Positions 10,463 through 32,778 of a stretch of 57,167 nucleotides of DNA are shown one piece after another. The position numbers and the translations under genes are program-made. The stretch is from Elusimicrobia bacterium GWB2_63_22. Its GTDB lineage: Bacteria; Elusimicrobiota; Elusimicrobia; Elusimicrobiales; UBA9959. The stretch is taken from the NCBI GenBank assembly GCA_001799735.1, contig MGUA01000005.1, positions 126,920-184,086 of the forward strand. Direction: 5' to 3'. The stretch's first letter is position 1, and each line of letters begins with the position of its first letter. The notes under the pieces are model-generated. The model was given only the letters and a program-made list of their open reading frames with translations, was not told where the DNA came from and ran no database searches.

Positions 10463-10753
10463 TCAAATCAGATCCCCATACAAATCCCGCCAAGCCGGAT
10501 TCCCGCTCTCGATCAAGTCCAGTTTCCAGCGTCGTTTCCAGCCCTTTAGTCTCTTTTCCCTGGCGATGGCCTCCAGCATTTCCGAATGAACTTCGTACCA
10601 GACCAGAAGATGCGCTCCATAGCGTTTCGTGAACCCCTCAACAAGGTCGCTCTTGTGCTCCCAGACTCGTTTAACAAGGTCGGACGTGACACCGACATAC
10701 AGTGTGCCGTTCCGCCTGCTGGCGAGAATGTAAACGCAAGGAAGTTTAGCCAT
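10463..10753 (-). CDS. GIY-YIG domain endonuclease-like protein
   Basis: 96 residues, one GIY-YIG nuclease domain: VYILASRRNGTLYVGVT carries the (V/I)YI..YVG motif, then Arg in LVKRVWEHK, Tyr/Glu in VWYEVHSEMLEAIARE and KRLKGWKRRWKLDLIE. Single-domain members (UvrC/YhbQ-like) are common, and their cellular role is mostly unknown. A GGGGGG run lies 2-8 nt before the ATG, next to TATAAG. The gene fits tightly between palindromic repeats on both sides, including 88-bp direct repeats, so the gene and repeats may form one mobile unit. Confidence 0.85.
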   Translation of the reverse strand: MAKLPCVYILASRRNGTLYVGVTSDLVKRVWEHKSDLVEGFTKRYGAHLLVWYEVHSEMLEAIAREKRLKGWKRRWKLDLIESGNPAWRDLYGDLI

Positions 10754-10767
10754 ATCCCCCCCTTATA

Positions 10768-10898
10768 CTGGATCCCGGCGTTCGCCGGGATGACGGCGGC
10801 TCAACCTCAGTCCGTCGCCCCGGCGAAGGCCGGGGCCCAGGCCCTCCCCTGGATCCCGGCGTTCGCCGGGATGACGAACAATACGCGCCGGGATGACG
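10768..10898. repeat. Palindromic repeat cluster, right of the GIY-YIG gene
   Basis: A 27-bp unit CTGGATCCCGGCG..GGGATGAC at 10768-10794 is followed by the second copy of the 88-bp block at 10811-10898. The block matches 10303-10390 at 84 of 88 positions in the same orientation. Confidence 0.9.
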
Positions 10899-10946
10899 CA
10901 CCTGGGGATATCCTAGCAGGCTACCCCGACAAAGGCATGTCGTCAT

Positions 10947-10978
10947 AAAAAAACCGCCGGGTTTTCCCGGCGGTTTTG
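10947..10978 (-). terminator. Intrinsic terminator of the uvrB-acetyltransferase operon
   Basis: On the minus strand the 11-bp stem AAACCGCCGGG / CCCGGCGGTTT closes a 4-nt AAAA loop and runs into a T7 tract. It lies 15 nt after the stop codon at 10994. Confidence 0.85.
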
Positions 10979-10993: not shown

Positions 10994-11929
10994 TTATACA
11001 GCGCGCATTTTGATGAAGATGGCGTCTTCGGAAACCTGGACAAAGCCCAGGGATTTATAGAGTTTCTGTGCCCCGGGGTTTATCTTGAACACTCCCAACC
11101 CCACAGGGAGCCCCCGGCCGCGGGCCTCGGCCAACAACCCTTTGATCAGTTGCGTGCCGATGCCTTTGCCCTGGTACTCCGGAAGAATGGCTATATCGGC
11201 CAGCTGCACATGAGTATCATAACGGCACACGTAGAGATAGCCTGCGTCAACCCCGTCGAAGACTATGATCTCCAGCAAGCCGGTATCGAAATCCTTCCTG
11301 TGTTCGGCACGTTGCCAGGCGTCGTCCCACTTGCCCCAGATCTTTTCTATGTTCGCCTTGTAAGCCCGTTCCTTGGCCCGGTAGGTGAACTCAAAATCAG
11401 CCTCGGCGGCTTTTCGTGTAGAAATTCTCTCCTGCTTTTGGGATAGGAACTTGCCCGCTACGTAACGGCACGCCCCGCCGAAGCAGCCCATAACCGCCGC
11501 CAGGACGCCCAGCCAGAAGACTATGGCCGCGAGGAGGCCGGCTTTTTCGCTTTCGGAGCCCAGGGACGCGGCGGCCAGCAGCAGCAGCACCAGGGCAGGG
11601 AATGCCGCCGCTTTCAGACCCCTCTTAAGCGAGTCGAGAAAACTTTTTGCCCCTCCGGAGAGAGCCGCGCCCGTGACCAGGCTTATGAGCGGCGAGCCGA
11701 TACCGATCACCATAAGAACCGGCATTAACAGTTCTATGTTTTCGGTCGAACTTCCCTCGGCGGACGCCCCCATGTACTCCGGAAGCGTTAACAGCAGAAA
11801 AAACAGGCCGGAGCCCAAAGCCCAGCAGATAAGGGTCCAGACCGCGCCCCGGGCGACGATGGACTCCCGGTAGGAGAAGCGGCCCCAGGCGGCCGCAACC
11901 CGGCTGAGGGTCGGAAGGGAATCGGTCAT
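10994..11929 (-). CDS. GNAT-family acetyltransferase fused to an N-terminal membrane domain
   Basis: 311 residues. Residues 28-165 hold about four hydrophobic segments (for example WTLICWALGSGLFFLLLTL, LMPVLMVIGIGSPLISLV, AAFPALVLLLLAAASL, LLAAIVFWLGVLAAVMGCF). Residues 175-311 form a GNAT domain with the acetyl-CoA loop LPEYQGKGIGTQLIKGLL and the C-terminal NPGAQKLYKSLGFVQ. The first codon overlaps the uvrB stop by 4 nt, so it is coupled to uvrB, and a terminator follows. The substrate is unknown. A membrane-embedded N-terminus on a GNAT enzyme is uncommon and suggests a membrane-associated target such as a lipid, glycan or exported peptide precursor. Confidence 0.8.
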   Translation of the reverse strand: MTDSLPTLSRVAAAWGRFSYRESIVARGAVWTLICWALGSGLFFLLLTLPEYMGASAEGSSTENIELLMPVLMVIGIGSPLISLVTGAALSGGAKSFLDSLKRGLKAAAFPALVLLLLAAASLGSESEKAGLLAAIVFWLGVLAAVMGCFGGACRYVAGKFLSQKQERISTRKAAEADFEFTYRAKERAYKANIEKIWGKWDDAWQRAEHRKDFDTGLLEIIVFDGVDAGYLYVCRYDTHVQLADIAILPEYQGKGIGTQLIKGLLAEARGRGLPVGLGVFKINPGAQKLYKSLGFVQVSEDAIFIKMRAV

Positions 11930-13947
11930 TTAGCACCCCTTTTTTTAGCGCCGCCCTTTCCTTTTACCCCGGCCATTTCGCGTATCTCAAAGAGGCGGTC
12001 GCGCAGTTCGGTGGCCAGCTCGAAGTCCAGGTTGTCGGCGGCTTCCTTCATGCGGCGCTCCACCTCGGCGGCCAGCGCCTTCACCCCGGCCTTGGGCAGG
12101 CCGGGCGGCAGCGGCTCGGCCACCATGATGCCCTGCCGCTTGGCCTGGGTGCGCAGCTCCTCGAATTCTATGAATTTCTTGATGATGGTCTTGGGTTCTA
12201 TGCCGTACTTTTTATTGTGGGCCAGCTGCCGGTCGCGGCGGCGCTTCATTTCGGCTATGGCCCGCTCCATGGAGCCGGTCATGCGGTCGGCGAAAAGAAT
12301 AACCTCGCCGCACAGGTTGCGGGCGGCGCGGCCGGAGATCTGTATCAGGGTGGTCTCGCTGCGCAGGAAGCCCTCGTTGTCGGCGTTAAGGATGGCCACC
12401 AGCGTAACCTCGGGGATGTCCAGGCCCTCCCGCAGCAGGTTGATGCCCACCAGCGCGTCGAACTCGCCCTTGCGGAAAGCGGACAGGATATCCAGCCGCT
12501 CCAGCGTGTCCATGTCGGAGTGCATGTACTTGGCCTTCAGGCCCTTCTCGCGCAGGAAGGAGCTCAGGTCCTCGGCCGTCTTCTTGGTAAGCGTCAGCAC
12601 CAGGGTGCGCTCGTGCCTGGCCGCGCGTTTTTCTATCTCGGCGGTCAGCGCCTTTATCTGGCCGGTCACGGGCAGGATCTTTATAACCGGGTCCACCAAA
12701 CCGGTGGGGCGGATGATGAGGTCGACGATATCCTGTTTGGCGCAGTTGGCCAGCTCGTAAGGGCCGGGCGTGGCGGACACAAAGACGGTAGCCGGCCGCA
12801 GGGCCTCGAACTCGTCGAACTTGAGCGGCCGGTTGTCCAGCGCCGACGGCAGACGGAAGCCGAAATCCACCAGCGTCTGCTTGCGCGCGCGGTCGCCGGC
12901 GTACATGCCGCGGATCTGCGGCACGGTCACGTGGGACTCGTCTATGAACAGCAGGAAATCCTTCTTAAAGTAATCGAACAGGCAATCTGGCCTGCTGCCC
13001 GCCGGGCGGCCGGCCAGGTGGCGGGAATAGTTCTCCACGCCGCTGCAGAAACCGGTCTGGCGTATCATCTCCAGGTCGTAGCGCACCCGCTGGCCCAGGC
13101 GCTCGGCCTCCAGCAGTTTCCCCTCCCCTTTCAGCACGGCCAGGCGCGCGGCCAACTCGGCCTCTATATTGGCCGTGGCCGCCTCTATCTCGCCGGTGGT
13201 GGAGACAAAATGTTTGGCCGGGAAAACGGAGATCTCGCCCAGTTCCCGTATAGTGTCGCCGGTCAGCGGGTTTATTTCCTTGATGGACTCCACAATGTCG
13301 CCCAGCTCCACCCGCCAGGCAGTTTCGGAATCGCCGGGGAAGATGTCCAGGTTGGCGCCGCGCAGGCGGAAGCAGCCGCGCCTGAAATCCATCTCGTTGC
13401 GGTCGTAATGGATATTCACCAGGAAACGGCTGAATTCCTTCCTGTCGGCCTTCTGCCCTTTCTTTATGGTCAGGCAGAGCTCGGAGAAGTTCTCCGGCGA
13501 GCCGATATTGTAGATGCAGGACACCGAGGCCACCACTATGGTGTCCGGCCTGGTAAGGATGGAGGTAGTAGCCTTCAGCCGCAGCTTGTCTATGTGATCG
13601 TTGATCGAGGAATCCTTCTCGATGTACGTATCGGTGGAAGGAATGTAGGCCTCGGGCTGGTAATAGTCGTAATAGGATACGAAGTATTCCACCGCGTTCT
13701 CGGGGAAGAAGGTTTTGAACTCGGAGTAGAGCTGGGCGGCCAGCACTTTGTTGGGCGAGATAATGAGCGCGGGCCGCTGCAGCCGCTCTATGGCAGCGGC
13801 CACGGCGAAGGTTTTGCCAGAGCCGGTAACGCCCAACAGCGTCTGGTTGGCCTTGCCGGCCTTTATGCCGGCGCAGAGCGCGTCTATAGCTCCCGGCTGG
13901 TCGCCGGCCGGCTTGAACGGCGCTACAAGCTTGAACCTTCCTTCCAT
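11926..13947 (-). CDS. uvrB: Excinuclease ABC subunit B
   Basis: 673 residues, full length. UvrB verifies DNA damage in nucleotide excision repair with UvrA and UvrC. Walker A is GVTGSGKT at residues 39-46; the beta-hairpin segment [20 protein letters not shown] follows; helicase motif II is [11 protein letters not shown], motif V is [10 protein letters not shown], motif VI is QISGRAARN. The C-terminal UVR motif is in [25 protein letters not shown] sits 6 nt before the ATG with no Shine-Dalgarno sequence, and it shares a short divergent promoter region with ispH. It is coupled to the membrane-GNAT gene by a 4-nt overlap. Confidence 0.97.
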
Positions 13948-13989: not shown

Positions 13990-15705
13990 ATGGCGAAGAA
14001 AATACAGATCACGGTGGCCAAAAGCGCCGGCTTTTGCCCCGGCGTGAAGAACGCCATAGACAAAGTGCTGGAGCTCGCCAAGCACAGCAACAAGGCCATC
14101 TACACCCTCGGCCCGCTTATCCACAACAAGCAGGTCATCGAGACCCTCAAAGAAAAGAACATCCGCTCCGTGGGCTCCGTGAAGGAGATAAAGGACAAGG
14201 ACGCCATCCTGGTGATCCGCGCCCACGGCATTCCGCCCGAAGAGGAAGCCCGCATCCGCTCGCTGCACGCCGACGTGGTGGACGCCACCTGCCCGCTGGT
14301 AAAGCACGTGCAGGAGAACATCCGGACCTACGCAAAGAAAGGCTATGCCACCATTATAGTGGGCGACAAGGACCACGCCGAAGTGCTGGGCCTGATGGGC
14401 TACACCGAAGGCCGCGGCTACGTGGTAAGCGGGCCTGAGGAAGTTAAGGCCCTCCCCCGCCTGGAGAAGGCCAACATAGTGGCCCAGACCACACAGGAGG
14501 GCGACGTCTTCCTGGCGGCCGCCGGCGAGGCGCGCCGGATAGCCGGCGAGCTGGCCGTGTCCAACACCATCTGCAATCCCACCAGGATGCGGCAGAAAGA
14601 GACGATGGAATTCTCTAAGGGCGCGGACCTGGTGATAGTGGTGGGCGGCAAGAATTCCGCCAACACCGCGCGCCTGTTCCAGATCTGCCAACCCCTGGCG
14701 CGGCGCGCCGTGCACATTGAGCGGGAAGACGAGCTGAAAAAAGAACTGTTCCAGGGCGCGTCAAAAATTTTCATAACCGCCGGAGCCTCCACCCCCACCT
14801 GGATGATAGAGAAAGTGCTGGAGAAGGCCCGCGAGCTGGCCGAGCACAAGGAAAACCCGCTCCTCGAAAACCTCGTCTTCGCCTGGAAGCTGGTAGTTAC
14901 CGGCTCGCTCTACACCGCCACCGCCGCCGTGGCCCTGACCTACGTCTGCATGAAGCTGGAAGGCGTCCCGGTCTCTAAAAAGCTGCTGCTGATGGCCGGG
15001 CTGTTCGCCTTCAGCCTGCACATGGCAAACCGCGCCGCGGAAAAAGGCGCGGCCGCCCCGGACAAGGCCAGGGCGCTGCTGTTCGTAAAATACCGCGTCG
15101 CCTCGCGCTTTACCGCCCTGCTCTGCGGGGCCGCGGCCATCTTCCTGTCGGCCGCGCTGGGCTGGCAGGTTTTCCTGGCTACAGCTTTCTTCTGGTTCGC
15201 TGGCATGCTCTACCCTTTCAAACTGCCGCTGGGGCTTGAGCGGTTCGGCAATTTCCCGGCCTCCAAGGATATTGTGACGGCGCTGGGCTGGGCCTTCATG
15301 TGCGCCTACGCGCCCGGCCTCTGGCACGAGGGCGGCATGAGCAGCGCCACCCAGCTGGCGGTGGTCTTCGCCTTCCTGCTGGTCTTCACGCGGTCGGTGC
15401 TGTTCGGCGTGAGCCACGCGCACGGCGACCTGATAGTGGGCAAGGAAAATTTCTACAAGGCGGCGGGGCAGCGGTTCACCTATTTAACGCTGTTCGCCAT
15501 CTTCATAGTGCTGGCGGGCATACTGATAACGCTTAAAGGGGCCGGCTGGCAGCCCGAGCTGGCGGCGGCCCTGCTGACCGGCCTGTTCTACTACCTCGGG
15601 ATAATGCTGTTCTTCTACTTCGGCAAACCGCCGGAACACATCCTGGCCGAGACCCTGATAGACACCCAATTCATAATCCTGGCCCTGCTGGCCTACGCCG
15701 TATAA
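13990..15705 (+). CDS. ispH: IspH (HMBPP reductase) fused to a UbiA-like membrane domain
   Basis: 571 residues, about twice the usual 280-320. Residues 1-285 are a complete IspH: GFCPGVKNA (C16), DATCPLVKHV (C101) and NTICNPTRMRQ (C195) supply the three [4Fe-4S] cysteines, with IRAHGIPP and the late TAGASTPTWMI. IspH makes IPP and DMAPP in the MEP pathway. Residues 300-571 contain about eight hydrophobic segments and resemble a UbiA prenyltransferase: SHAHGDLIVGKENF looks like the second Asp-rich region (GDxxxG), while the usual NDxxDxxxD is replaced by NRAAEKGAAAPDKARA. The joined reading frame suggests that isoprenoid precursor production is linked to a membrane prenyl-transfer step; the second activity is inference. 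Confidence 0.9.
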   Translation: MAKKIQITVAKSAGFCPGVKNAIDKVLELAKHSNKAIYTLGPLIHNKQVIETLKEKNIRSVGSVKEIKDKDAILVIRAHGIPPEEEARIRSLHADVVDATCPLVKHVQENIRTYAKKGYATIIVGDKDHAEVLGLMGYTEGRGYVVSGPEEVKALPRLEKANIVAQTTQEGDVFLAAAGEARRIAGELAVSNTICNPTRMRQKETMEFSKGADLVIVVGGKNSANTARLFQICQPLARRAVHIEREDELKKELFQGASKIFITAGASTPTWMIEKVLEKARELAEHKENPLLENLVFAWKLVVTGSLYTATAAVALTYVCMKLEGVPVSKKLLLMAGLFAFSLHMANRAAEKGAAAPDKARALLFVKYRVASRFTALLCGAAAIFLSAALGWQVFLATAFFWFAGMLYPFKLPLGLERFGNFPASKDIVTALGWAFMCAYAPGLWHEGGMSSATQLAVVFAFLLVFTRSVLFGVSHAHGDLIVGKENFYKAAGQRFTYLTLFAIFIVLAGILITLKGAGWQPELAAALLTGLFYYLGIMLFFYFGKPPEHILAETLIDTQFIILALLAYAV

Positions 15706-15707
15706 AT

Positions 15708-15785
15708 AAATAGGGACAGCGCCCTATTTTCAGGCGCCGTCCCTGTTATTATATATAAGGGGAAATAGGGCGCTGTCCCTATTTT
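15708..15785. repeat. Terminal inverted repeat element of 78 bp
   Basis: A 23-bp sequence beginning AAATAGGGACAGCGCCC at 15708-15730 is repeated inverted at 15763-15785, with a 32-bp AT-rich centre holding a partial GCCGTCCCTG copy. GGGACAG..CCCTATTT inverted repeats of this style occur as non-autonomous elements in many genomes. It overlaps the sigma-factor stop codon and sits in the convergent gap, where it may also work as a terminator. Confidence 0.8.
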
Positions 15786-16314
15786 ATGAGAGTTCCTTTT
15801 TGAGGGTCTGGCGGGCGCGGAAGAGGCGGGTTTTGAAGGCGGGCACGGTGATCTTGAGCACGTTGGCGGCCTCTTCCATGGAGAGGCCCTGTATGTCGGC
15901 CAGGGTGACGGCCAGGCGGTAATCCACGGAGAGTTTGGAGAGCGCTTTGGCCACGCTCTCGGAAAGGTCTTTTTTTCTGACGTCCTCGGCGTGGGTGAGG
16001 TCCTGCATTTCGGCCAGGTCTTCCAGGCTGACCAGTTTTTCGCTCTTCTTCTTGCGGTACTTCATCCAGCAGTTATTGGCGGCTATGCGGTACAGCCAGG
16101 TGCCGAAGCCGGACTTGCCTTTGAACTTGGAGATGTTCTTGAAGGCGGAGATGAAGGTTTCCTGGTAGACGTCGTCGGCTTCCGACTTGAGCCCCAGGCA
16201 GACGTAGTTGGCCAGGCCGTAGATCTTGTCCTGGTATTTTTTTACCAGCGACTCAAAGCTGGCCGTGTCGCCGGCCTGGGCCTTGGCAATGAGTTCCGCG
16301 TCGTTTTTGTCCAT
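15784..16314 (-). CDS. RNA polymerase sigma factor, ECF (RpoE-like) family
   Basis: 176 residues with region 2 (residues 22-88: ESLVKKYQDKIYGLANY, DDVYQETFISAFKNI, FGTWLYRIAANNCW) and region 4 (residues 122-174: LSVDYRLAVTLADIQGLSMEE and VLKITVPAFKTRLFRARQ). The linker holds KKKSEKLVSLEDL. No anti-sigma gene lies next to it, so its control is not evident. TATAAT on the minus strand ends 6 nt before the ATG. The promoter set it recognises cannot be deduced from the window. Confidence 0.92.
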   Translation of the reverse strand: MDKNDAELIAKAQAGDTASFESLVKKYQDKIYGLANYVCLGLKSEADDVYQETFISAFKNISKFKGKSGFGTWLYRIAANNCWMKYRKKKSEKLVSLEDLAEMQDLTHAEDVRKKDLSESVAKALSKLSVDYRLAVTLADIQGLSMEEAANVLKITVPAFKTRLFRARQTLKKELS

Positions 16315-16361: not shown

Positions 16362-16433
16362 GCGCAGTTAGCTCAGCGGTAGAGCGCCTCTCTTACACAG
16401 AGGATGTCACAGGTTCAAATCCTGTACTGCGCA
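16362..16433 (+). tRNA. tRNA-Val (anticodon UAC)
   Basis: Full cloverleaf of 72 nt: acceptor GCGCAGT/ACTGCGC with discriminator A, D arm GCTC..GAGC, anticodon stem CCTCT/AGAGG with loop CTTACAC (anticodon TAC at 16394-16396) and T arm ACAGG-TTCAAAT-CCTGT. CCA is not encoded. Confidence 0.97.
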
Positions 16434-18611: not shown

Positions 18612-18627
18612 GCCTAAGCCTACAAAT

Positions 18628-18657
18628 AAAAAAGGCCCGGTCTCCCGGGCCTTTTTT
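18628..18657. terminator. Intrinsic terminator, bidirectional, after the OPT transporter
   Basis: A 13-bp stem AAAAAAGGCCCGG / CCGGGCCTTTTTT with a TCTC loop. A- and T-tracts on both sides allow it to serve both convergent genes. Confidence 0.9.
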
Positions 18658-18664
18658 ATATCCT

Positions 18665-18734
18665 GTCATTCCGGCGCAAGCCGGAATCCAGAAGAACATT
18701 GAGAAGACTAGATTCCGGCTTGCGCCGGAATGAC
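18665..18734. repeat. Dispersed palindromic repeat, paired hairpins
   Basis: GTCATTCCGGCGCAAGCCGG..CCAG and an inverted copy CTAGATTCCGG..CCGGAATGAC form a 70-bp palindrome with a 20-nt centre. Same family as 7892-7958 and the blocks around the GIY-YIG gene. Confidence 0.88.
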
Positions 18735-21139: not shown

Positions 21140-22306
21140 TTATTTTATTCCCTCAAATACGGTTTTCAGCAGTTCGTTCTCGCTCATGCCGCGGAAGCCG
21201 CCCCACAGCACCCTTTTCATGCCCAGCATGTGGCCCATACCCATCAGCGCCAGGGCCAGCAGCTCGTGGTCGTCTATGGTGAAATCTCCGGGCCGCGCCG
21301 CTTTTTTCAGTTGGGCCGAGTAATTGCGCAGGATGTAGCCGTAGTAGGCGTCCGCCAGGGTCTGGTCGGTGAACTCGGCCTCGCGCATGATGCGGTAGCC
21401 GTAGGGATGCTCGCGGATAAAGTCGAACAGCGCCCTGAAGGCCATGGCCTCGGTCTCCACGCGGCTGCCCGCGCCGGCCGAATAAGCCGCGGCCTTCTTT
21501 ACCAGGCAGTCGCGCATGCGCATTACCACTTTTTCCAGCGCGTCCTCTTTGGAATCGAAGAACAGGTAGAAGGTGCCGGCGGCGAAGCCGGCCTTCTTGG
21601 CTATCTCCGCCACACGGGCGCCATTATAGCCGCAGCGGCCGAACACTTCCTCCGCCGCGGCCAGCATCAGCCCTTGGGTGTCCCCCGGCGCGGGCTTAGA
21701 CCGCGAGGGCCCGGCCCCCGCCGGCTCCCACCACGGGAAAGCCCTGCCGCTTATGCCGGCGGCGCACAATTTGGCCGCCGCCTCGGGTGCGCGGCCCGGC
21801 GCGCCCCCCTTCTCCCAAACCATGAACTTTACGGTGTAAAAATACAGCGTCCCGAGCAGCGCCCAGGCGTGCGCGGAAGCTTTGGCCCCAGGCGCAAAGC
21901 GCGCCAGGCGGCCTGCCACTATCTCGGCCAGCGGGCCGTAGAAATCCCGGGCCAGGTCTTCGTCCCCGGCTTCGGCCTCGCGCATGGCCTTGAACGCGTC
22001 CAGCCGGCGGCCGGCGGTGGCGAAGAAAGCCTGCGCTATGGCGTGCGCTTCCTGCTCCGCGCCCTTCTCCTGCGGCAGCTCGGAGATGGCCCGTATCAGG
22101 TCGTCGCGCAGTTCGCGCGTCAGCGCCTGAATTATTTCCTCTTTCGAAGCGAAGTAGCGGTAGAAACCGCCCACGGCCAGCCCGGCCGCGCTGCAGATGT
22201 CGGCCACCCCCGAGGCGGCGCAGCCCTTGCGGGCGAACACCGCCCCGGACGCCTCTATGAGGCGCTCGCGGGTTTTAATGCCCTTGGGGGTAGCCGGCGC
22301 TGACAT
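21140..22306 (-). CDS. Tandem TetR/AcrR regulator with two DNA-binding domains in one chain
   Basis: 388 residues, twice the normal 190-210. The first TetR_N helix-turn-helix is at residues 12-60 (RERLIEASGAVFARKGCAA, then AGLAVGGFYRYFASKEEII). A second complete one is at about residues 215-262 (MLAAAEEVFGRCGYNGARV, then AGFAAGTFYLFFDSKEDAL). Each is followed by its own helical ligand-binding half. One chain can therefore contain what is usually a dimer, or dimerise to contact four half-sites. It is encoded between fabG (sharing base 22306) and the KAS III-like gene, so it probably regulates this operon, perhaps through the dyad at 23156-23176. The ligand is probably an acyl compound by analogy; that is inference. 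Confidence 0.88.
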   Translation of the reverse strand: MSAPATPKGIKTRERLIEASGAVFARKGCAASGVADICSAAGLAVGGFYRYFASKEEIIQALTRELRDDLIRAISELPQEKGAEQEAHAIAQAFFATAGRRLDAFKAMREAEAGDEDLARDFYGPLAEIVAGRLARFAPGAKASAHAWALLGTLYFYTVKFMVWEKGGAPGRAPEAAAKLCAAGISGRAFPWWEPAGAGPSRSKPAPGDTQGLMLAAAEEVFGRCGYNGARVAEIAKKAGFAAGTFYLFFDSKEDALEKVVMRMRDCLVKKAAAYSAGAGSRVETEAMAFRALFDFIREHPYGYRIMREAEFTDQTLADAYYGYILRNYSAQLKKAARPGDFTIDDHELLALALMGMGHMLGMKRVLWGGFRGMSENELLKTVFEGIK

Positions 22307-23332: not shown

Positions 23333-23411
23333 GGGGTCGTGGTGTAGCCTGGTTTAACACGTCGCCCTGTCAAGGCGAAGACCGCGGGTTCGAATCCCGT
23401 CGACCCCGCCA
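23333..23411 (+). tRNA. tRNA-Asp (anticodon GUC), CCA encoded
   Basis: Acceptor GGGGTCG/CGACCCC, discriminator G, encoded CCA at 23409-23411; anticodon stem TCGCC/GGCGA with anticodon GTC at 23369-23371; T arm CGGG-TTCGAAT-CCCG. Its 3' end is the junction with the accessory island, and the recombinase reading frame on the opposite strand runs into it. Confidence 0.97.
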
Positions 23412-24893
23412 AATTTTCTTCTCGGAAAATTTGGCACAATTTAAATCCGCTAGTCCGGCTAGCGCCCGCAGTTTCTCCGCCGGAAAATTAAGTTTTAATT
23501 TTATTTTCTTCCCGCCTATAATTAAGTTCGAACCGATATTTTTCAATATTTGCAGGTTCTCCTCGGGTTTTCCGGAAACTGCGGCCTCTCCGGCGTGAAC
23601 TGCGAGTTTGTAAAACCCTATCAGTGGTTCGAACCGTTTACTCCCCTCCCGCTCAAAAGCTGCGAGTTTCATTTCACATTCTTTTTTTTCTTCTAAGCAT
23701 GAACGCTTCTTTTGGGCGTATTCATCCTGCGTTATCATCCCGCTAAGGATCATGTCCAAAAGAGCGTTCATGCTCTTCGTAAGGAAATCTATTTTATCTC
23801 GCAGATTTTGGGCGGTGCTTTCCCCGGCCTGGGCCGCCTTTATTCCTTCCGCTTTTATGTTATCAAGAGCTTCGGCGGCCAGGGCCGGGGGTAAGGAAAC
23901 TCCTTTTAGGATTTCGCGTACCTGGCGATCTATCTCCTCCTCGCGGACAAACAGCTCCGCACAGGGCTGCTTGCGCTTGGTGCAATGCAGGTACTTATGC
24001 CCCTTCTGCGTCTCGGTAGTTATGAAGCAACCGCAAGAGGCGCAACGGAAAGCGCCCCGGTAAACATAGGGCAATAGAGTTTTAGTTTTGGGCTTACTTT
24101 TGTTTTTAAGCATCTCCTGGCACTTGTCAAAGAGCGCCTTGGAGATTATGGGCTTATGCTTGGCCTCGTAAACCTCCCCGTAATAGCGCATAACCCCGTA
24201 GTAGATAGGGTTCCGGAGCATATAGTGGCAGTTGGACACGGACAGGGGCTTATGAAGTTTACGCCCGCGAAGCCCGGACCTGTTTACCATGTCGCGGATT
24301 TCAAGGATGGCGTAATTCCCAGTAGCGTAAAGCTCAAAGGCTTTTTTAATGACCGGGGCGCGCTCTTTATCAACGTGTATCGTGTGGGTGGCCAGATTGT
24401 TTATGTAGCCCATCGGCGCCCATGAGGGCCAGATACCATTGCGAAGCTTTTGGCGAATACCGCGCTTTACATTTTCCGAGAGGTTGTCCACGTAATACTT
24501 GGACTGGCCGAAAGCGATAGACAGCATGAACTTGCCCTGCGGCGTGGGGTCAAACCAGAAGGTAGGGAACTTGAGCTCTAAAAGCTTGCCAGTGTCCACC
24601 AAGTAGACCAAGCGGCCCCCATCAATTGAATTCCTAGCGAGCCGGTCAGGGTGCCAGGCAACTATCCCCTGGGCCACGCCCTGTTCAAGGCCAGCGACCA
24701 TCTCGTTGAACATGTCGCGGCCCGGCTCCTTGGCGGTTTTGCTTTCTATGAACTCGCGGACGATGGCGAGACCGTTCTTTTTGGCGTAGTCACGGAGTTC
24801 AGCGAGCTGCGCCTCAATGGACAAGATCTGCCGGTCCGGCTCGTCCGTGGACTTGCGTGCATAAAGGAAATACCGCATATTAGACTTCTCCAT
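23370..24893 (-). CDS. Large serine recombinase, C-terminus fused into the tRNA-Asp antisense
   Basis: 507 residues. Order: catalytic resolvase domain (YARKSTDEPDRQ with S15 as the nucleophile, AWHPDRLARNS), recombinase domain (ENVKRGIRQKLRNG to RNPIYYGVMRYYG), zinc ribbon (FRCASCGCFITTE with later HCTKRKQPCAE), then a coiled coil at about 365-430. Such enzymes integrate, excise or invert DNA at specific sites. GGGGAGG lies 6-7 nt before the ATG. The last 11 residues (GRRDSNPRSSP) are translated antisense tRNA-Asp and replace the native tail. A plus-strand copy of the native 3' end survives at 25044-25229. The gene's 3' end is part of a 112-bp inverted repeat. Confidence 0.9.
   Translation of the reverse strand: MEKSNMRYFLYARKSTDEPDRQILSIEAQLAELRDYAKKNGLAIVREFIESKTAKEPGRDMFNEMVAGLEQGVAQGIVAWHPDRLARNSIDGGRLVYLVDTGKLLELKFPTFWFDPTPQGKFMLSIAFGQSKYYVDNLSENVKRGIRQKLRNGIWPSWAPMGYINNLATHTIHVDKERAPVIKKAFELYATGNYAILEIRDMVNRSGLRGRKLHKPLSVSNCHYMLRNPIYYGVMRYYGEVYEAKHKPIISKALFDKCQEMLKNKSKPKTKTLLPYVYRGAFRCASCGCFITTETQKGHKYLHCTKRKQPCAELFVREEEIDRQVREILKGVSLPPALAAEALDNIKAEGIKAAQAGESTAQNLRDKIDFLTKSMNALLDMILSGMITQDEYAQKKRSCLEEKKECEMKLAAFEREGSKRFEPLIGFYKLAVHAGEAAVSGKPEENLQILKNIGSNLIIGGKKIKLKLNFPAEKLRALAGLADLNCAKFSEKKIWRGRRDSNPRSSP
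23405..23516 (-). repeat. 112-bp inverted repeat, left copy (recombinase 3' end)
   Basis: This block encodes the recombinase segment from GGKKIKLKLNF to EKKIWR and abuts the tRNA-Asp 3' end. It matches 25062-25173 in inverted orientation at 111 of 112 bases; the single difference changes one Ala codon to Glu. Confidence 0.95.
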
Positions 24894-25043
24894 ACCTTGC
24901 CTCCCCTTGCTCTTAAGGACGGTTTTGCCCAGCAGGGCTGAACCGGCCTTAAGTGCTATTCTTCAACTCTGCGCCGCGGGTAAGGCCGGCCAGGCGCACC
25001 AGCGCTGGGCCGGCCGCACCGGCGGCCATAAGGACAATAATTC

Positions 25044-25229
25044 GGTTCGCATTTAATCATTGGCGGGAAGAAAATAAAATTAAAACTTAATTTTCCGGAG
25101 GAGAAACTGCGGGCGCTAGCCGGACTAGCGGATTTAAATTGTGCCAAATTTTCCGAGAAGAAAATTTGGCGGGCCTTTCAGGATGAAGTTCGCGACTACT
25201 TTGCGCAACATCCCGAGGTAACTTTATAA
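25044..25229 (+). pseudogene. Orphan 3' end of a serine recombinase with the native C-terminal tail
   Basis: In frame 25044-25229 the plus strand reads GSHLIIGGKKIKLKLNF and so on to KKIWRAFQDEVRDY and FAQHPEVTL, then TAA. Up to KKIWR it equals the C-terminus of the minus-strand recombinase; beyond that it carries an 18-residue tail that the present gene lacks. Upstream of 25044 similarity fades through an in-frame stop, so the 5' part of this copy is gone. If the DNA between the inverted repeats flipped, the full recombinase would be joined to this tail. Confidence 0.88.
25062..25173 (+). repeat. 112-bp inverted repeat, right copy
   Basis: Inverted partner of 23405-23516 (111 of 112 identical). 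The repeats enclose about 1.55 kb with the whole recombinase except its last codons. Outside each end the sequences differ: tRNA-Asp on the left, the native tail coding sequence on the right. Confidence 0.95.
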
Positions 25230-25563
25230 ATACCGCCAGCAAGCCGTTAAAGCTGCGGTATTGGGGATCTTATCCGCGAGATGTCGTCGCAGGCGTGGCC
25301 ACGAAGCGCGGCCCCGCACTGCTCCTTGCCGCGAGAAGGCGGTTCGCAGGGCTCCGGCACTATGCGCCGTCGCACCTGCTCCAAAGGTGTTCTGCATCTT
25401 ATCAACACCCCCTATGCGCGGCCGGCCGGTACCCAACTGGGCCTTACCGGGCCGCTCCAGTCCGCCGCAGGCGTCCGTACAATGCAGAAAATTATTTCCC
25501 GCGCCCATCAATCTTGCTGTTGTAAGGCGCAGAACACATTCTTCTGCCTGTTTTTATTATAAC
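25230..25563. other. Non-coding gap inside the island
   Basis: 334 bp between the orphan recombinase tail and the fic stop codon. Open frames exist on both strands but have arginine- and proline-rich, non-protein-like composition and no start signals. The GC content is higher than in the neighbouring island genes. I see no RNA gene, terminator or repeat here. Confidence 0.4.
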
Positions 25564-26682
25564 TTATTTTGGGGGATTATTTCTGATGTATTTCTGATAA
25601 ATTTCTGATAACTTGTAGGACCTGGAGCGTCTTGAGGGATTAGCCAGCACGATCCAGCCGTCTTTAACCCATGCGGTAAGCAAATAAAGGACCATCCTGT
25701 CGGAAAGCCCCAAAGCGGCGGCCATCTCTTGCGTAGAGACCACGTCTTTCCCGGCAAAAAGGCCCAGGATCACCCGCGCCCGACGGTCCAGCTTGCGCAG
25801 CAACTCAGGCTCGGCCGGCATTCCCTCTTTGGAACACTTCAGGGCCTCATCCTTGGCGCGGCCAAAGACCTCGGCCAGCAGCACAACAAAATACTCTATC
25901 CACCCGGTAAGATCGGAATCGGCGCGGCCCGCGTAGCAGTTATGGTGCTTATGCACCGCGAGCGAGTTGTAATACGCCTCTATATCGCGGGCATGGTGCT
26001 CTTCCATAGAGAAGAACCCGCGCATACCGTAGCCGTCCCTGTGCAGCAGGAAAGTAGCCAGCAGCCTGGCGGTCCTGCCGTTGCCGTCATAATATGGATG
26101 GATGGTAACGAACTGATAATGCGCTAGCGCGGCTATTATGGGCCCTGGGATGCCGTTGCGCTCGGCCTGGCGCACCCAGGCGGCCATTTCCGACATAAGC
26201 TTGTGCACGTCCTTGGCTTCCGGGGGCATATAGACAATAGCGCCGGTGGCCGAGTCATTAATAACGTTCTGCCCGGTGCGGTAGGGCGTGGCCTTTGAGC
26301 GTTTGCCCTTCTCCACAATGGCGTGGAGCCGCTTCACCAGCTCTTCGGTGAACTCGGCGCGCTTCGCCGCCCATTCCTCTACCTTCAACATGGCGTTCCA
26401 ATAGTTGCGCACCTCGCTGGTGTCGCGCTCGCGGCCATGGAAAGAAGTCTTCTTGCGCTCTATTACGTCCTGCGCTTCCTTCAGGGTAAGCCGGTTGCCC
26501 TCAATGCGGGTAGAGAAATGTGTGGACCTCACCATTGCCGCGCGCCGCAATTCCGCCTCAACAGCAGGCGGCAAAGCCGTGCGCTCCACAATTGTCTTTG
26601 CGGACTCAATGTCCATCAACGCCCTGGCGATTTTATTGCTTAAACCGTAGCGCGGCGCCCAATGCCGTGTTTTATTTTTCAT
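25564..26682 (-). CDS. Fic family protein, class II (self-inhibited) AMP transferase-like
   Basis: 372 residues. Fic proteins transfer AMP or similar groups to target side chains. The active motif HPYYDGNGRTARL (about residues 192-204) has the catalytic His and the GNGR loop; position 3 is Tyr rather than Phe. An N-terminal inhibitory motif STRIEGN (57-63) fits the class II (S/T)xxxE(G/N) rule, so activity is probably autoinhibited by E61. The C-terminal part (about 300-372) looks like a winged helix (STQEMAAALGLSDRMVLYLL). It ends the minus-strand island series. Stand-alone Fic proteins with HTH tails occur in toxin-like and regulatory settings; the target is unknown. Confidence 0.88.
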   Translation of the reverse strand: MKNKTRHWAPRYGLSNKIARALMDIESAKTIVERTALPPAVEAELRRAAMVRSTHFSTRIEGNRLTLKEAQDVIERKKTSFHGRERDTSEVRNYWNAMLKVEEWAAKRAEFTEELVKRLHAIVEKGKRSKATPYRTGQNVINDSATGAIVYMPPEAKDVHKLMSEMAAWVRQAERNGIPGPIIAALAHYQFVTIHPYYDGNGRTARLLATFLLHRDGYGMRGFFSMEEHHARDIEAYYNSLAVHKHHNCYAGRADSDLTGWIEYFVVLLAEVFGRAKDEALKCSKEGMPAEPELLRKLDRRARVILGLFAGKDVVSTQEMAAALGLSDRMVLYLLTAWVKDGWIVLANPSRRSRSYKLSEIYQKYIRNNPPK

Positions 26683-26863
26683 GTGTCACAATCTTTGTCT
26701 TAGCTCGTCACAGTAAAGGCTCATAGAACTTTGCCGGGGCCGTCGGCCCGCGGCTCACCCGGCCTCTCTGCAATGCACGGCGATTAGCCTTAAGCCACAA
26801 TGTCTTACAAATCAAATACTAATTTTTACTAATAGATTTACTACTAACTTGCTAATAACTTTG

Positions 26864-28525
26864 CTATTTCTTTATCCAATTAGGAGCTTTGTCGCTCCCG
26901 GAGTTCCTGATCTTTCCGGCCCTTCTCAATTCAGAGATCAGATTGTTGATTTTAGACTTCTTCTGCTTGTCGCTCATCCAATCCGGGAGCTTTTTCCAAA
27001 GCAGTTCGTCAATATCTTTGCGGGACAGATTTTTATGCTCATCAAGCGCTTTTAATATCAAGTCCAGGTAATACATTTTGTCAAAGGCCCTGTTTTTGGA
27101 ATACCCGGCTTTCTGCCCTGTAATCTGGGACATCCCTTTTGAAAGGAAGTAGTTAGGTCTTCTACCCTCTATTAATTTACGGGCTTTAAGATGTTTCTCT
27201 TCAGCTTTTGAAAGCGGACGCTTTTTCTGGACTTTATCGAGAAGAATAATCTCCTCAAGGGATAGTTCGGCATTCCCCGCAAGCAGTCGGGCATAATCAA
27301 TATCAAGGACTTTGCCCGTTATGGTGACTTTCACCTTATTTCCGGAAAGGTCGTAGTCGGGCATGGGAAAAAACCGCTGCCGCTGGAAGTTGAACATCTT
27401 CCTTATGCCGCCGCCGGCGGTATCAACCATTTTCAGGTTGAACATGGCGGTTGCCAGAAACCGGTTGCGATAATGTTCTTCGGGAGCGTTATCCTGCACA
27501 ACTTTTCCTACATCTCCCGGAATGAAGCCGCCGAGATTGGTGAAAACGAGCTGGTCTTCCAGTTCCACAACATTGATGCGTCCGCTGAGGGAATAATCCT
27601 GATGGGCGATACAGTTATTTATCGCCTCTCTTATTGTAAACGGCTCGTACTGGTCTATTTCCTCCGGGAACAAAGTGCCGTCTTTAAGGTAGCGGTACTT
27701 GGAGTTCCTGATCTTGGCGTAGACTTTATCCACGGCCAGCAGCAGCGGGCAGCCGACTATCATGTAGTCTTTGTCGTTCCCTTTTGAATCCTTAAGAAGC
27801 CAGCGGATCTTGGCCTCGGCGGGGCCTATAAAATGCTCCGCCTCTTCTTTGCCAAGCAGAATAACGGCGGCGCGCGTTATCTTCCCCTTGATGGTAAGTT
27901 TTGCCTTGTTAAGGAATGTTAAGGTATCCCAGGAATCCACTTCCGGGGCTTTATCCGGGAATTTGCTCTTGAAATTTGCGCGCGCCACGGAAATCGCCCG
28001 CTCATCCAGGTCGTCCACCGTAGCGCCGTCAACAATTGCCGCGCTCCAGTCCGTTAAGCCTGCCTGGGCCCTGATACGCTCTATCTCCTCAAGATTCAGC
28101 GGAACCAGCTCTTCCCCATCCCGGCCGTAATAATGCCCATCAAAGGCAATCGGCAGCCCTTTGGGCGCGGCGGGGATCTGAAAAAGAACAACCCTTTTTC
28201 CACCGGCAGTATTCAGTTCATGGATTTCGATGAACGTAATCCTGTTGATGGTTTTAGCCGCAATCTCGCCCTTCAGGCTGTCCAGGTCTTTGCGGGAACT
28301 GCGGAAAGAACTTCCCACTACAGCGTGATTTTTATTTTCCACTCCGAAAACAAGCCAGGCGCACGATCTGCCCTTGAGATTAGCTTCATTGCTGAGGGCT
28401 GAAAAGTATTTACCGATCTTATCGAAGTGATAGGTGTTTTTCGCTTCTTTAAATTCCACCACCTCGGTTTCTGCGGGGAGGCGGCACAACTTATCCAGGA
28501 TTGCCGCAAGTTCTTTATCGTTCAT
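26864..28525 (-). CDS. AlbA_2/Schlafen-like domain protein with GHKL ATPase-like domain
   Basis: 553 residues. The N-terminus has the AlbA_2 (Schlafen-type) signature EVVEFKEAKNTYHFDKIGKY, ALSNEA and a later YYGRDGEELVPL. Residues 300-400 hold a divergent ATPase region (FTIREAINNCIAHQDYSLSG, VFTNLGGFIPGDV, DTAGGGIRKMF) of the type annotated as ATP-dependent DNA helicase RecG-related or HATPase_c_4. The C-terminus (about 440-553) is basic and may contain winged-helix segments. Such proteins are common next to restriction systems and mobile elements, often as regulators. Only 23 nt separate its start from the upstream secreted-protein gene. Its role is inferred only from context. Confidence 0.8.
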   Translation of the reverse strand: MNDKELAAILDKLCRLPAETEVVEFKEAKNTYHFDKIGKYFSALSNEANLKGRSCAWLVFGVENKNHAVVGSSFRSSRKDLDSLKGEIAAKTINRITFIEIHELNTAGGKRVVLFQIPAAPKGLPIAFDGHYYGRDGEELVPLNLEEIERIRAQAGLTDWSAAIVDGATVDDLDERAISVARANFKSKFPDKAPEVDSWDTLTFLNKAKLTIKGKITRAAVILLGKEEAEHFIGPAEAKIRWLLKDSKGNDKDYMIVGCPLLLAVDKVYAKIRNSKYRYLKDGTLFPEEIDQYEPFTIREAINNCIAHQDYSLSGRINVVELEDQLVFTNLGGFIPGDVGKVVQDNAPEEHYRNRFLATAMFNLKMVDTAGGGIRKMFNFQRQRFFPMPDYDLSGNKVKVTITGKVLDIDYARLLAGNAELSLEEIILLDKVQKKRPLSKAEEKHLKARKLIEGRRPNYFLSKGMSQITGQKAGYSKNRAFDKMYYLDLILKALDEHKNLSRKDIDELLWKKLPDWMSDKQKKSKINNLISELRRAGKIRNSGSDKAPNWIKK

Positions 28526-28548
28526 ATCTTTTCCCTGCTATCTATCTT

Positions 28549-29157
28549 TTATTTGCCGGATTTCTCTTTGATAGTCCAGAAGCCTTCAAAGATATAGCCG
28601 ATCTTGAACCCGAGCGCGGGCTTAAGCGTGCCGGCCCTGCCGCCACCGACATTGTCCAGGTCCAGGTCTATAAGCCGGTAGAAAACATCAAAAGTGAAGC
28701 CGGTGGGCGTATCAGCGTATTCCTCGGTTGTGTAGAGCAACCCGGCGGATATCATGGGCGCCGCATAAAGCGTTGTATCAGACAACCCCAGGTCGGCAAA
28801 GGCCGAAGCAGTAAGCCGCAAAGGTTTACCCTGCACCTTTGGCGCGATATACTGCATACCGAGCAGCAGATCGAAAAGGTAGAACGTGTCCTTGCCGGTG
28901 GCAGGATTATCAACCTTTATACTTTGGAACTGCAACCCGCCAGTCTTCGAGATAGTTTCATTGCCAACAGCGCGGAAGCCAAAGCCCCAAGGCTTAACGC
29001 TCTCATTACCACCGCCGGAAATGTCCAGGCTCTGCCCCGTAGGCATTATCATGTAATACTCATTGGCGGAAACCCATTTATAAACAGGTTTGGGGTCGGC
29101 TGCAAACCCGAATTGCGGGAGAAGAAAGAGTACTCCTATGAATATGGCCTTTTTCAT
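28549..29157 (-). CDS. Exported barrel-like protein of unknown function within the defence island
   Basis: 202 residues with a clear signal peptide (MKKAIFIGVLFLLPQFGFAA). Mature segments such as WGFGFRAVGNETI, FYLFDLLLGMQYIAP, LRLTASAFADLGL and KPALGFKIGYIFEGFW alternate in a way that suits an outer-membrane barrel, but it ends in charged residues. No family recognised. The start follows the stop of the 133-residue gene by 2 nt, so it belongs to the minus-strand series. An envelope protein between an ATPase/nuclease pair and the AlbA_2 gene is unexpected; it could be a phage-receptor decoy, cargo or a leftover of an earlier insertion. Confidence 0.65.
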   Translation of the reverse strand: MKKAIFIGVLFLLPQFGFAADPKPVYKWVSANEYYMIMPTGQSLDISGGGNESVKPWGFGFRAVGNETISKTGGLQFQSIKVDNPATGKDTFYLFDLLLGMQYIAPKVQGKPLRLTASAFADLGLSDTTLYAAPMISAGLLYTTEEYADTPTGFTFDVFYRLIDLDLDNVGGGRAGTLKPALGFKIGYIFEGFWTIKEKSGK

Positions 29158-29159
29158 GA

Positions 29160-29561
29160 TTATTTCTCAGTATAGACTATTTTCAGTTTGGCGCCGGTTG
29201 CTGACGCTTTGTACGGCCTGGGGCCAGTATTGATTATCTTGGCGAATGCTTTTGCGGTGGCCGCGGCGGTCTGCTTAGCCTTAAGCGGCAGCATTATATT
29301 CCAGCCCGCCACATGGTTAATTGTGTCGTCCGGCCGCATAAAGCGGAAGATGGACAACCAAATGCCGATACAGCCGTTTATACTGGCGTCATTGCGCCCG
29401 GTGGCAATGCCGGAAACCTCAGCAATCCCAGGCGTACCGCCAACAGTAACCTTGGCGGCAAGAACTTTAATCTTCTGAGTTTTATCGAAAGTGGCCGCCT
29501 CAAACTTTGCGCCCTTAGCAAGCTCTACTTCTGGGTTATACTTGGGGGGAATCTTTGCCAT
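29160..29561 (-). CDS. Hypothetical protein, 133 residues
   Basis: No family recognised. The sequence is basic and Ala-rich, begins MAKIPPKYNPEVELAKGAKF, has TVGGTPGIAEVSGIATGRND and GCIGIWLSIFRFMRPDD in the middle, and ends KATGAKLKIVYTEK-like (…ASATGAKLKIVYTEK). There is no signal peptide or membrane segment of full length. It lies between the 107-residue gene (10-nt gap) and the exported-protein gene (2-nt gap), so these three are probably one translational unit behind the ATPase gene. GGAGG is found before the start. Confidence 0.55.
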   Translation of the reverse strand: MAKIPPKYNPEVELAKGAKFEAATFDKTQKIKVLAAKVTVGGTPGIAEVSGIATGRNDASINGCIGIWLSIFRFMRPDDTINHVAGWNIMLPLKAKQTAAATAKAFAKIINTGPRPYKASATGAKLKIVYTEK

Positions 29562-29571
29562 AAAGCCTCCG

Positions 29572-29895
29572 CTAAATCTCTACTCTATAAGTGCACCCTT
29601 TAGTGTTTCCGTAGGCCAATAACTTATACAAATCATCAACTTCTTTTGTTGTTTTTCCGCCACGTGAAAAATATGGAGCGGATTCGGCTTTAATATTTAT
29701 ATGCGCATTACCGACGGCAAGAATTTCGAATCCGTTCTTTTGCAGGTAATCTGCTACGGGCTGCATTTTTCCATACTCATAACTGCAAATTGGGCACGCA
29801 GAGGCGGCTTCTGGAGTCGGGTGCTTAAAAGCACGATGCCAATACTGCATCTTTGTCGCAGTTAATCCAAATTTTCCATTAGCATATCCGCTCAT
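29572..29895 (-). CDS. Hypothetical protein with a CPIC motif, 107 residues
   Basis: No family recognised. CPICSYEYGKMQPVADYLQK (about residues 34-53) has a CxxC pair, but only one more Cys appears (TKGCTYRVEI), so a full zinc site is doubtful. The C-terminal half (FEILAVGNAHINIKAESAPY, GKTTKEVDDLYKLLAYG) looks like a small alpha/beta fold. GAGGGT lies before the ATG, and it starts 12 nt after the ATPase gene ends. By position it is the best candidate for a third component of the ATPase/nuclease system, but the sequence does not show that. Confidence 0.55.
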   Translation of the reverse strand: MSGYANGKFGLTATKMQYWHRAFKHPTPEAASACPICSYEYGKMQPVADYLQKNGFEILAVGNAHINIKAESAPYFSRGGKTTKEVDDLYKLLAYGNTKGCTYRVEI

Positions 29896-29907
29896 GCTAC
29901 CCTCCGT

Positions 29908-31608
29908 TTACCCCATTAAAGTTTTGTCTAAAAGCTCTGTCAGTAAGGGATTAACTATTTTAAAATCCTGGTCATTCAATACCCTGTGTTTCGTTGCCAG
30001 TTCTATTGTCTTGCCGGGATATTTCAGCCCATGTGTTTCAACGGTGCCCAATATCAACTGGCAATTCTTAGGCCTCTTTTCCAGAACAAACTGCATGATC
30101 TTTTTTATGTTTTTATAGTCCGGGTCTTGCTGAAGCGGGGAGTCAACAATTAACGGGCACGGAAGATAGTCTGGCGAGAATTCTGCCATGACATGCAAGA
30201 TACTATAGTACTGCGCCAGCAGCGCTCTCGGGAGATCACTGCCTGCGGTATTGAGTTTACTGGTCGGTTTTTCACACTGAGTTTGAGAAACAGTACTCAC
30301 ATCCAGCGCAGTTAGAAAATCTCTCAGTTTCTGACTATACGAGTTATTAATTCTCTGAATTCGACTTTTTTCTTGTATCTGAAGTCGCTCCGCCTTTAAT
30401 CCATCCAATTCCAACTGAAGCTTGCCAATTATGCTCTCAATCCGCTCAACGTCAGCGCGTAGCAGGCGGCGGACCTCTTTTTTGCTTTCCGAACCGATAA
30501 TATCTTTTAAAGTTAAATCACCCTGCCGTGCCTCTAGAAGCGTCTGCAAATCACTCAGTTCCTTCTGGTTTTGATAACAACTCTCGTTCAAATCGGAAAT
30601 TTTATGTTCGATCCCCTTCTGTTGCTCGCATAAGTCCAAAACGAGCTTGTGGCACATTTCCACATCCTCAACCAACTTAAACCGTTTAGTTATGGCATTC
30701 TGGAATTCAGTGCCACATGTTGGACATTCAATATTCCCTTTGGAGGTCTGGGCCAAAACATATTTATGATCTTTTTCCAATTCAACTCTGGCTGTTTCAG
30801 CGATTTCAGCCTGACGCTGCAACATAAACCGTTGTTTTTCAAGTTCAGACAAAGCGGTCTTATATTTCTCCTCTTTTTCCCGAAGACTCTGGCAAGCCGA
30901 AACCAATGACTGTGTCTCATGCTTAAAAGCATTCAAATCCATATCAAATATCGCGCCATTGGTCTTAAATCTTTTTTGTGCCTCAACCACAATATTCCGC
31001 TCTACTTTTACAGGCTCGATGTCCCTGCCAATTTCGTCTATACGCTGTTTAATGTCGAAATACCTCTTGGGAAGAATGCCGATGTGATAATTTATCATCA
31101 TCGTCTTATAATCGGAGAACTGCTGGAGCCCTTCAAATGACTCCCATAGCTTATGCCAGCCCGAATCTTGGTCAACAAAGAACGGCAAAAAGAAATATGA
31201 CGGTGGCAGCAGGCGGGATTTACCACGCTTATCCTGCATTTGGATCTTAAACCCAAACATATCCGCAAAAATCGCACCGACACCGCCTTCACGCCCGACT
31301 CCCTCGTATTTCCCCAAAAGCCTTTTCTTTTTATCAAACAATGCGAACATTGTTTTATGGCGCAGTAAAATATAAGTTGCTTTCTCAAGCTCAAATTCGA
31401 CAGCGGATATCTCGGATGTTTCCTCCCAATTCGAAGGAGTACGAATCGGGGATGCCCCGAAAGTGTGATATAAGGACTTTAATAGAGAAGATTTGCCGGT
31501 ATCATTGTCCCCCGTTATCACGTTTACTTCGGGGTCGAACTCTATTTTCCGCGCTCGTTGAGCTTTCTTTGACAGAAGATACAATGTTTTGAAGGTTAAT
31601 TTTTTCAT
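29908..31608 (-). CDS. SMC/Rad50-like ABC ATPase of a putative Lamassu/ABC-3C type defence system
   Basis: 566 residues. Walker A GDNDTGKSS at residues 33-41, a central coiled coil (about 190-420) broken by a hook-like IECPTCGTEF, a signature-like segment AGSDLPRALLAQYY and Walker B PLIVDSPLQQDPD near the end, where Gln residues follow the Asp instead of the usual Glu. This head-coil-hook-coil-head order is that of small SMC-like ATPases such as LmuB of Lamassu and the ATPases of ABC three-component systems. It sits 38 nt downstream of a DUF4297 nuclease gene, the usual partner in Lamassu-Cap4. It probably senses foreign DNA or its ends and licenses the nuclease. Exact subtype not established. 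Confidence 0.75.
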   Translation of the reverse strand: MKKLTFKTLYLLSKKAQRARKIEFDPEVNVITGDNDTGKSSLLKSLYHTFGASPIRTPSNWEETSEISAVEFELEKATYILLRHKTMFALFDKKKRLLGKYEGVGREGGVGAIFADMFGFKIQMQDKRGKSRLLPPSYFFLPFFVDQDSGWHKLWESFEGLQQFSDYKTMMINYHIGILPKRYFDIKQRIDEIGRDIEPVKVERNIVVEAQKRFKTNGAIFDMDLNAFKHETQSLVSACQSLREKEEKYKTALSELEKQRFMLQRQAEIAETARVELEKDHKYVLAQTSKGNIECPTCGTEFQNAITKRFKLVEDVEMCHKLVLDLCEQQKGIEHKISDLNESCYQNQKELSDLQTLLEARQGDLTLKDIIGSESKKEVRRLLRADVERIESIIGKLQLELDGLKAERLQIQEKSRIQRINNSYSQKLRDFLTALDVSTVSQTQCEKPTSKLNTAGSDLPRALLAQYYSILHVMAEFSPDYLPCPLIVDSPLQQDPDYKNIKKIMQFVLEKRPKNCQLILGTVETHGLKYPGKTIELATKHRVLNDQDFKIVNPLLTELLDKTLMG

Positions 31609-31646
31609 AAGCCCTCTTTCTCAGATTCCGAACAAGCCGTTTATAT

Positions 31647-32744: not shown

Positions 32745-32778
32745 AAGCCTGTCACTTTATCTTTGTTCGCAACCATAA

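Follow-up and report, generated by a model that had tools for sequence, protein, structure and literature searches.

The 57,167-nucleotide stretch analyzed here (the window, from contig MGUA01000005.1 of Elusimicrobia bacterium GWB2_63_22) encodes a fusion protein in which an IspH domain is followed by a UbiA-like membrane domain (Table 1). IspH, which catalyzes the final step of the bacterial isoprenoid (MEP) pathway, is normally soluble and essential. As the original prediction proposed, a complete IspH with all three cluster cysteines runs without a break into about 285 membrane residues: the gene is a single 571-aa frame with nine predicted helices, and C16, C101, and C195 are present and invariant among 52 fused relatives. 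The closest named records are Elusimicrobia MAGs. No conserved operon partner was found at the loci compared; uvrB, an ECF-type sigma factor gene, and an OPT transporter gene are neighbors within the same family, and other genes take their place elsewhere. The sigma factor gene adjoins ispH-ubiA in several genera (L084–L086, L095). In the window, the space between the convergent fused and sigma factor genes (15705–15785) holds an inverted repeat (atagggacagcgccctatttt ... aaatagggcgctgtccctatttt), which may be a terminator common to both genes or a small mobile repeat.

Table 1. Features of the ispH-ubiA-like locus, in window coordinates
Feature	Position	Strand	Basis or remark
uvrB, divergent conserved upstream neighbor	11926..13947	-	locus comparison
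Fused gene ispH-ubiA-like	13990..15705	+	one uninterrupted frame, 571 aa, ATG start, TAA stop included
IspH domain, residues 1-284 (LYTB 7-279)	13990..14841	+	Pfam/TIGR00216 matches; PDB 3dnf, E 2.2e-67
C16 codon, [4Fe-4S] ligand	14035..14037	+	52/52 invariant; aligned to 3dnf
C101 codon, [4Fe-4S] ligand	14290..14292	+	52/52 invariant
C195 codon, [4Fe-4S] ligand	14572..14574	+	52/52 invariant
Short linker	14842..14856	+	IspH of unfused relatives ends near here
UbiA-fold membrane domain, residues 290-570, nine predicted TM helices	14857..15702	+	AlphaFold2, Foldseek/VIA-align, hydropathy, positive-inside
Degenerate first Asp-rich motif, N347, R348, E351 (NRAAE; canonical NDxxDxxxD)	15028..15042	+	N 49/52, E 45/52
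K426-D427, within PASKD signature common to the wider IspH-UbiA family	15265..15270	+	sequence alignment
R468, conserved in-helix arginine	15391..15393	+	52/52 Elusimicrobiota; 27/29 other lineages
Degenerate second Asp-rich motif, H476 for first Asp, D480 retained	15415..15429	+	conservation in 52 copies
E554-x3-D558, charged pair opening TM9	15649..15663	+	E554 51/52, D558 49/52; D558 26/29 elsewhere
ECF-type sigma factor gene, convergent neighbor	15784..16314	-	absent together with UbiA-like domain at unfused loci L015-L017
tRNA gene	16362..16433	+	at L015-L017, a tRNA gene comes immediately after the ispH stop

Other features of the window include a protein of 388 aa that contains two TetR_N stretches (21143–22306, minus strand) and adjoins genes for KAS III and a short-chain reductase, and a segment that looks like an integrated defense island (23373–37717, minus strand), comprising a serine recombinase by a tRNA gene (23333–23408), a Schlafen/AlbA_2 protein, and the type I restriction set hsdR/hsdS/hsdM. 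Some 6 kb separates two AcrB-type RND pump genes of opposite orientation (43771–47013, minus; 53460–56546, plus). Intergenic repeats at 10586–10948 and 18612–18733 translate as WIPAFAGMT/VIPAQAGIQ and represent a dispersed, non-coding DNA repeat.

Residues 7–279 of the fusion protein match Pfam LYTB (E 5e-86; 288.7 bits against a cut-off of 24.5), and the TIGR00216 ispH_lytB model is passed at 275 bits (cut-off 188). The nearest solved structure by sequence is Aquifex aeolicus IspH (3dnf, E 2.2e-67). Beside the three cysteines, H45, H79, H129, E131, T168, S223, N225, and S267 are invariant in the 52 fused relatives. The fused copy is the sole IspH found in the window's genome, and IspG and a trans-prenyl synthase are present in the genomes tested; judging from its sequence, the N-terminal half would be expected to reduce HMBPP to IPP and DMAPP. 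The best-scoring model for this half is NF000907 (IspH-RPS1; 316 bits, residues 6–289), although its 624-bit cut-off is not reached. IspH is likewise the N-terminal half of a larger fusion in IspH-RPS1 proteins, but the partner there consists of soluble ribosomal protein S1 repeats, and no S1 match was found in the C-terminal half of the window protein.

The fusion is widespread in the phylum. The UbiA-like domain was identified in 94 of 341 Elusimicrobiota genomes with a deep profile (93 with a first profile), and IspH in 300 of them; the domain-bearing frames exceed 500 aa, except for those in G107 and a copy in G005 that is split across contigs. A lost stop codon or assembly artefact peculiar to this genome is therefore ruled out as the origin of the architecture. 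The G107 gene (L100) has its IspH broken near residue 190, leaving a 376-aa frame and two LYTB pieces, through either a frameshift or an assembly error. One genome, G185 (L087, L088), has two IspHs, one fused and one unfused; the latter belongs to another subfamily and is 34% identical to that of the window. No match was found in viral contigs, plasmids, or phages.

Outside the phylum, the fusion occurs in 29 of 386 sampled genomes, spread over 24 families, and all of these proteins contain the IspH cysteines and Glu. A profile of the Elusimicrobiota C-terminal domain matches five of the other-lineage fusions (E 1.8e-44 to 7.7e-18), and SKD and terminal Asp signatures are common to both sets. 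A search for separate homologues of the C-terminal half gave a divided answer: no free-standing close homologues were found in the 341 Elusimicrobiota genomes, but one relative was found outside the phylum, a 287-aa protein (L236:1504–2367, plus strand) with an intact second Asp motif, flanked by fumarate-reductase-like genes on one side and a MurA-like gene on the other.

Fusions of this kind have been described. Rao et al. (2015) reported 47 IspH-UbiA proteins (PT_UbiA_5), all from sulfate-reducing anaerobes, with two DXXXD motifs and function unknown (PMC4746011); a literature search returned only that paper and a citation of it. Judged from the published description rather than from the sequences themselves, those proteins share with ours an N-terminal IspH, a UbiA-like C-terminus of about nine TM helices, a single chain, and equal size, but ours differs in its Elusimicrobiota host, a second motif without its first Asp, and a first motif of the form N-R-x-x-E (PMC4746011). 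The two DXXXD repeats, a trait of the published set rather than its definition, are thus not found here, while other-lineage members largely keep the second. No published report of the Elusimicrobiota form was found in the mostly open-access literature searched.

The C-terminal half matches the UbiA family model PF01040 weakly (E 0.0025; 17.6 bits, below the gathering cut-off of 34.2), and 9 of 21 A1 members match it at E values up to 1 (best 2.8e-6). Searches of the PDB with sequence profiles found nothing, and profile-profile alignment gave no significant match to MenA-like or MqnP-like proteins from the phylum. Structure prediction was more informative. An AlphaFold2 model of this half, built from a 15-sequence alignment, has nine long helices (pLDDT 76.8, pTM 0.81), and UbiA-family chains constitute its top 14 Foldseek matches, including the Aeropyrum pernix enzyme (4od4; probability 1.00, TM 0.60), UBIAD1, the Archaeoglobus fulgidus enzyme, DGGGP synthase, and a UbiA-fold phosphoribosyltransferase. 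VIA-align superposes the model on 4tq4 with a Z of 17.4 and an rmsd of 3.6 across 257 residues; soluble prenyl synthases score about 14. The nine helices are hydrophobic at their cores, and the loops carry their basic residues exclusively on the IspH side of the membrane. The model thus points to a relationship to UbiA that is clear by fold and weak by sequence, and the possibility that the two are unrelated is ruled out by the fold matches, in line with the original prediction. Model confidence drops to its lowest (pLDDT below 50) precisely where the loops of the active site would lie, and the pTM of the full-length model is 0.50, so its placement of IspH relative to the membrane domain is not reliable.

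In AfUbiA, Mg2+ is bound by N68, D72, D198, and D202, and mutation of the equivalent positions abolishes, or nearly abolishes, the function of E. coli MenA (PMC4106721). We assigned the equivalents from a global profile alignment combined with local motifs; because the profile alignment alone is not significant, the mapping of motif I residues is less certain than that of motif II. In the 52 Elusimicrobiota copies, N68 corresponds to N347 (conserved in 49) and D202 to D480 (in all 52). The D72 equivalent, position 351, is Glu in 45 and never Asp, and the D76 equivalent, position 355, is not acidic, with no Asp in any copy. This agrees with the altered first Asp-rich motif reported in the original prediction; of its GDxxxG motif, D480 (52/52) and G484 (49/52) are conserved. 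The second motif, a point absent from the original prediction, is degenerate as well: the D198 equivalent, position 476, is His in the window protein and His, Ser, Ala, Gln, Asn, or Tyr across the set, and is acidic in none. The catalytic motifs NDxxDxxxD and DxxxD are therefore absent as such from all 52 sequences, although N347 and D480 remain. At the same four positions, the 29 fused proteins of other lineages have N in 22, Asp/Glu in 22, Asp/Glu in 25, and D in 29; all four ligands are present in 13 and three in 14. If the intact state is assumed to be ancestral, the presence of these ligands elsewhere makes loss of the second motif specific to the Elusimicrobiota branch. K426, D427, R468, E486, Y489, K490, E554, and D558 are also conserved in Elusimicrobiota; a conserved cytoplasm-facing set comprises K426, D427, R468, D480, E554, and D558, and K426-D427, R468, and D558 are largely common to the other-lineage fusions.

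Like the UbiA prenyltransferases (UbiA, MenA, MqnP, AfUbiA, ApUbiA, DGGGP synthase), the fused domain has a nine-helix fold, a polar chamber on the cytoplasmic side, and equivalents of N68, Y139, and D202 (PMC4106721). Unlike them, it lacks the D198 equivalent, has Glu or another residue for D72, has lost D76, falls under the Pfam gathering score, and in Elusimicrobiota is essentially always fused to IspH. With the D198 position lost and D72 replaced, standard Mg2+-dependent prenyl transfer is probably not carried out. The original prediction that a MEP-pathway enzyme sits at the membrane beside a prenyl-transfer-like module is supported as regards a UbiA-fold module. A working prenyl-transfer module with DMAPP/IPP channeling is not supported as such: two of the four Mg2+-ligand positions (D198, D72) differ from the canonical residues in each Elusimicrobiota copy examined, and the corresponding MenA mutants retain little or no function (PMC4106721). 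The accompanying idea of channeling had already been put forward by Rao et al., who proposed channeling or localization for IspH-UbiA (PMC4746011).

These comparisons also bear on whether the domain could be an active but atypical membrane prenyltransferase with a rebuilt metal/diphosphate site, fed locally by IspH (compare Rao et al.). Such a site would use N347/E351, D480, and perhaps K426-D427 and E554-D558. The fold, the cytoplasmic polar chamber, and the strong conservation would suit an active site, the fused relatives elsewhere mostly retain intact ligands, and the domain is kept in genomes without any other UbiA. However, position 476 is never acidic and 351 never Asp, E. coli MenA mutated at the equivalent positions has little or no function (PMC4106721), and no acceptor-pathway neighbor was seen at the loci compared. 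We consider this explanation unlikely, though it is the strongest of the alternatives.

Other UbiA proteins bear on a possible role in quinone prenylation. In ten family f2 genomes tested, no PF01040 match exceeds the cut-off and the best match is the fused domain itself; the f2 genomes tested have one trans-prenyl synthase each (in two pieces in G059). The window's genome encodes a MenA-like UbiA beside a polyprenyl synthase elsewhere on the contig. These data do not support a link to quinone prenylation: the fused domain is retained in f2 genomes that lack canonical UbiA. Together with the separate MenA-like protein of the window's genome, this makes quinone prenylation an unlikely role. Several unfused genomes of the same genus (L152; G006, G019, G026, G027) contain a high-scoring UbiA, and that of G012 is MqnP-like by NCBIfam, the window's genome having the MenA-like type. 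The link between UbiA type and fusion state is loose, some fused genomes also containing the high-scoring type.

The two halves have diverged in step (r = 0.92), and trees of either half group the Elusimicrobiota copies in a single clade. The dN/dS of the C-terminal half is 0.05–0.17, close to or slightly above that of the IspH half; the domain is under purifying selection. In the IspH-domain tree, unfused copies are nested within fused ones, and the fusion label needs eight changes, six of them forced by well-supported branches. At three loci (L015–L017), an unfused ispH sits amid the window's neighbors, with uvrB upstream (L015, L016) and, downstream, the hydrolase or OPT genes. Immediately after the ispH stop comes a tRNA gene, and the UbiA-like domain and the ECF sigma factor gene are both absent. 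An equally clean difference separates a fused (L097) and an unfused (L099) copy at one locus in family f2, and no convincing remnants of the domain were found beside unfused ispH genes. We read this as several independent losses of the domain, the alternative being recombination between relatives. Repeated clean absence at the same locus indicates that the domain is dispensable for IspH, and repeated loss with no visible replacement likewise implies that any product of an atypical transferase is dispensable.

Such losses would also suit a pure membrane anchor that binds no ligand, its charged residues only stabilizing the helix bundle or an IspH contact, and the lost canonical motifs and poor Pfam score fit this as well. 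It is nonetheless improbable: the cytoplasmic chamber contains invariant R468 and D480 and near-invariant N347, K426, D427, E486, Y489, K490, E554, and D558, nine helices in about 285 residues would be a costly anchor, and the domain evolves at a dN/dS near that of the IspH half.

We estimate an even chance that the fused protein is a membrane-tethered IspH whose UbiA-fold partner, probably not a standard prenyltransferase, serves both to anchor IspH and to bind a prenyl (di)phosphate. Tethering of a predicted membrane-localized IspH is the safest functional claim and is well supported; a pocket that binds a ligand and is non-catalytic, both of which we infer, is preferred but unproven. The nine-helix domain would keep IspH on the cytoplasmic surface of the membrane, its C-terminus leading into TM1, placing IspH near the consumers of its products and possibly conferring a proximity benefit; the former active-site pocket may still bind prenyl (di)phosphate or polyprenyl phosphate. 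Several observations count against this explanation. N347, E351 (45/52), D480, and Y408 remain and could form one Mg2+ site in an atypical transferase; the conservation of K426, D427, R468, E486, Y489, K490, E554, and D558 exceeds what a bare anchor needs and could reflect new chemistry; no operon partner accounts for the function; and the model is least confident at the would-be site loops and unreliable in the placement of the two domains.

The presence of UBIAD1, in its complex with HMG-CoA reductase (HMGCR; 8djk), among the top fold matches raises one further alternative, that the domain is a prenyl-diphosphate sensor tuning IspH activity or stability, much as UBIAD1 binds HMGCR in mammals. 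In both systems, a UbiA-fold membrane protein would be bound to an early isoprenoid-pathway enzyme, but UBIAD1 and HMGCR are two separate proteins of the animal mevalonate pathway, and here a single chain belongs to the MEP pathway. Some diphosphate-binding residues combined with an incomplete catalytic set would make a suitable pocket, and UBIAD1 binding inhibits HMGCR degradation (PMC9314443). The proposal rests on analogy, however, and the full-length model (pTM 0.50) gives no evidence of contact between the domains; we regard a sensor as very improbable. Scarcely more probable, and drawn from the same analogy, is an evolutionary version in which an ancestral IspH-prenyltransferase fusion became, in Elusimicrobiota, an enzyme joined to a UbiA-fold pseudo-prenyltransferase; the latter would bind prenyl diphosphates and, at the membrane, control the final step of the MEP pathway. 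If correct, bacteria would have, within one chain, a counterpart of the UBIAD1 and HMG-CoA reductase pair.

The fusion is genuine and belongs to a kind already known; the version in the Elusimicrobiota branch has diverged, with changes to the UbiA metal site, and is kept under selection although it has been lost repeatedly. Its occurrence in 29 of 386 genomes outside the phylum widens the published picture of a fusion confined to sulfate reducers. The variant represents a conserved, apparently membrane-bound IspH in a phylum beyond the published range; its UbiA-fold partner is missing one metal ligand. Fusions with intact motifs, fusions with altered motifs, and recently unfused copies in the same genus offer natural comparisons for the role of this partner.
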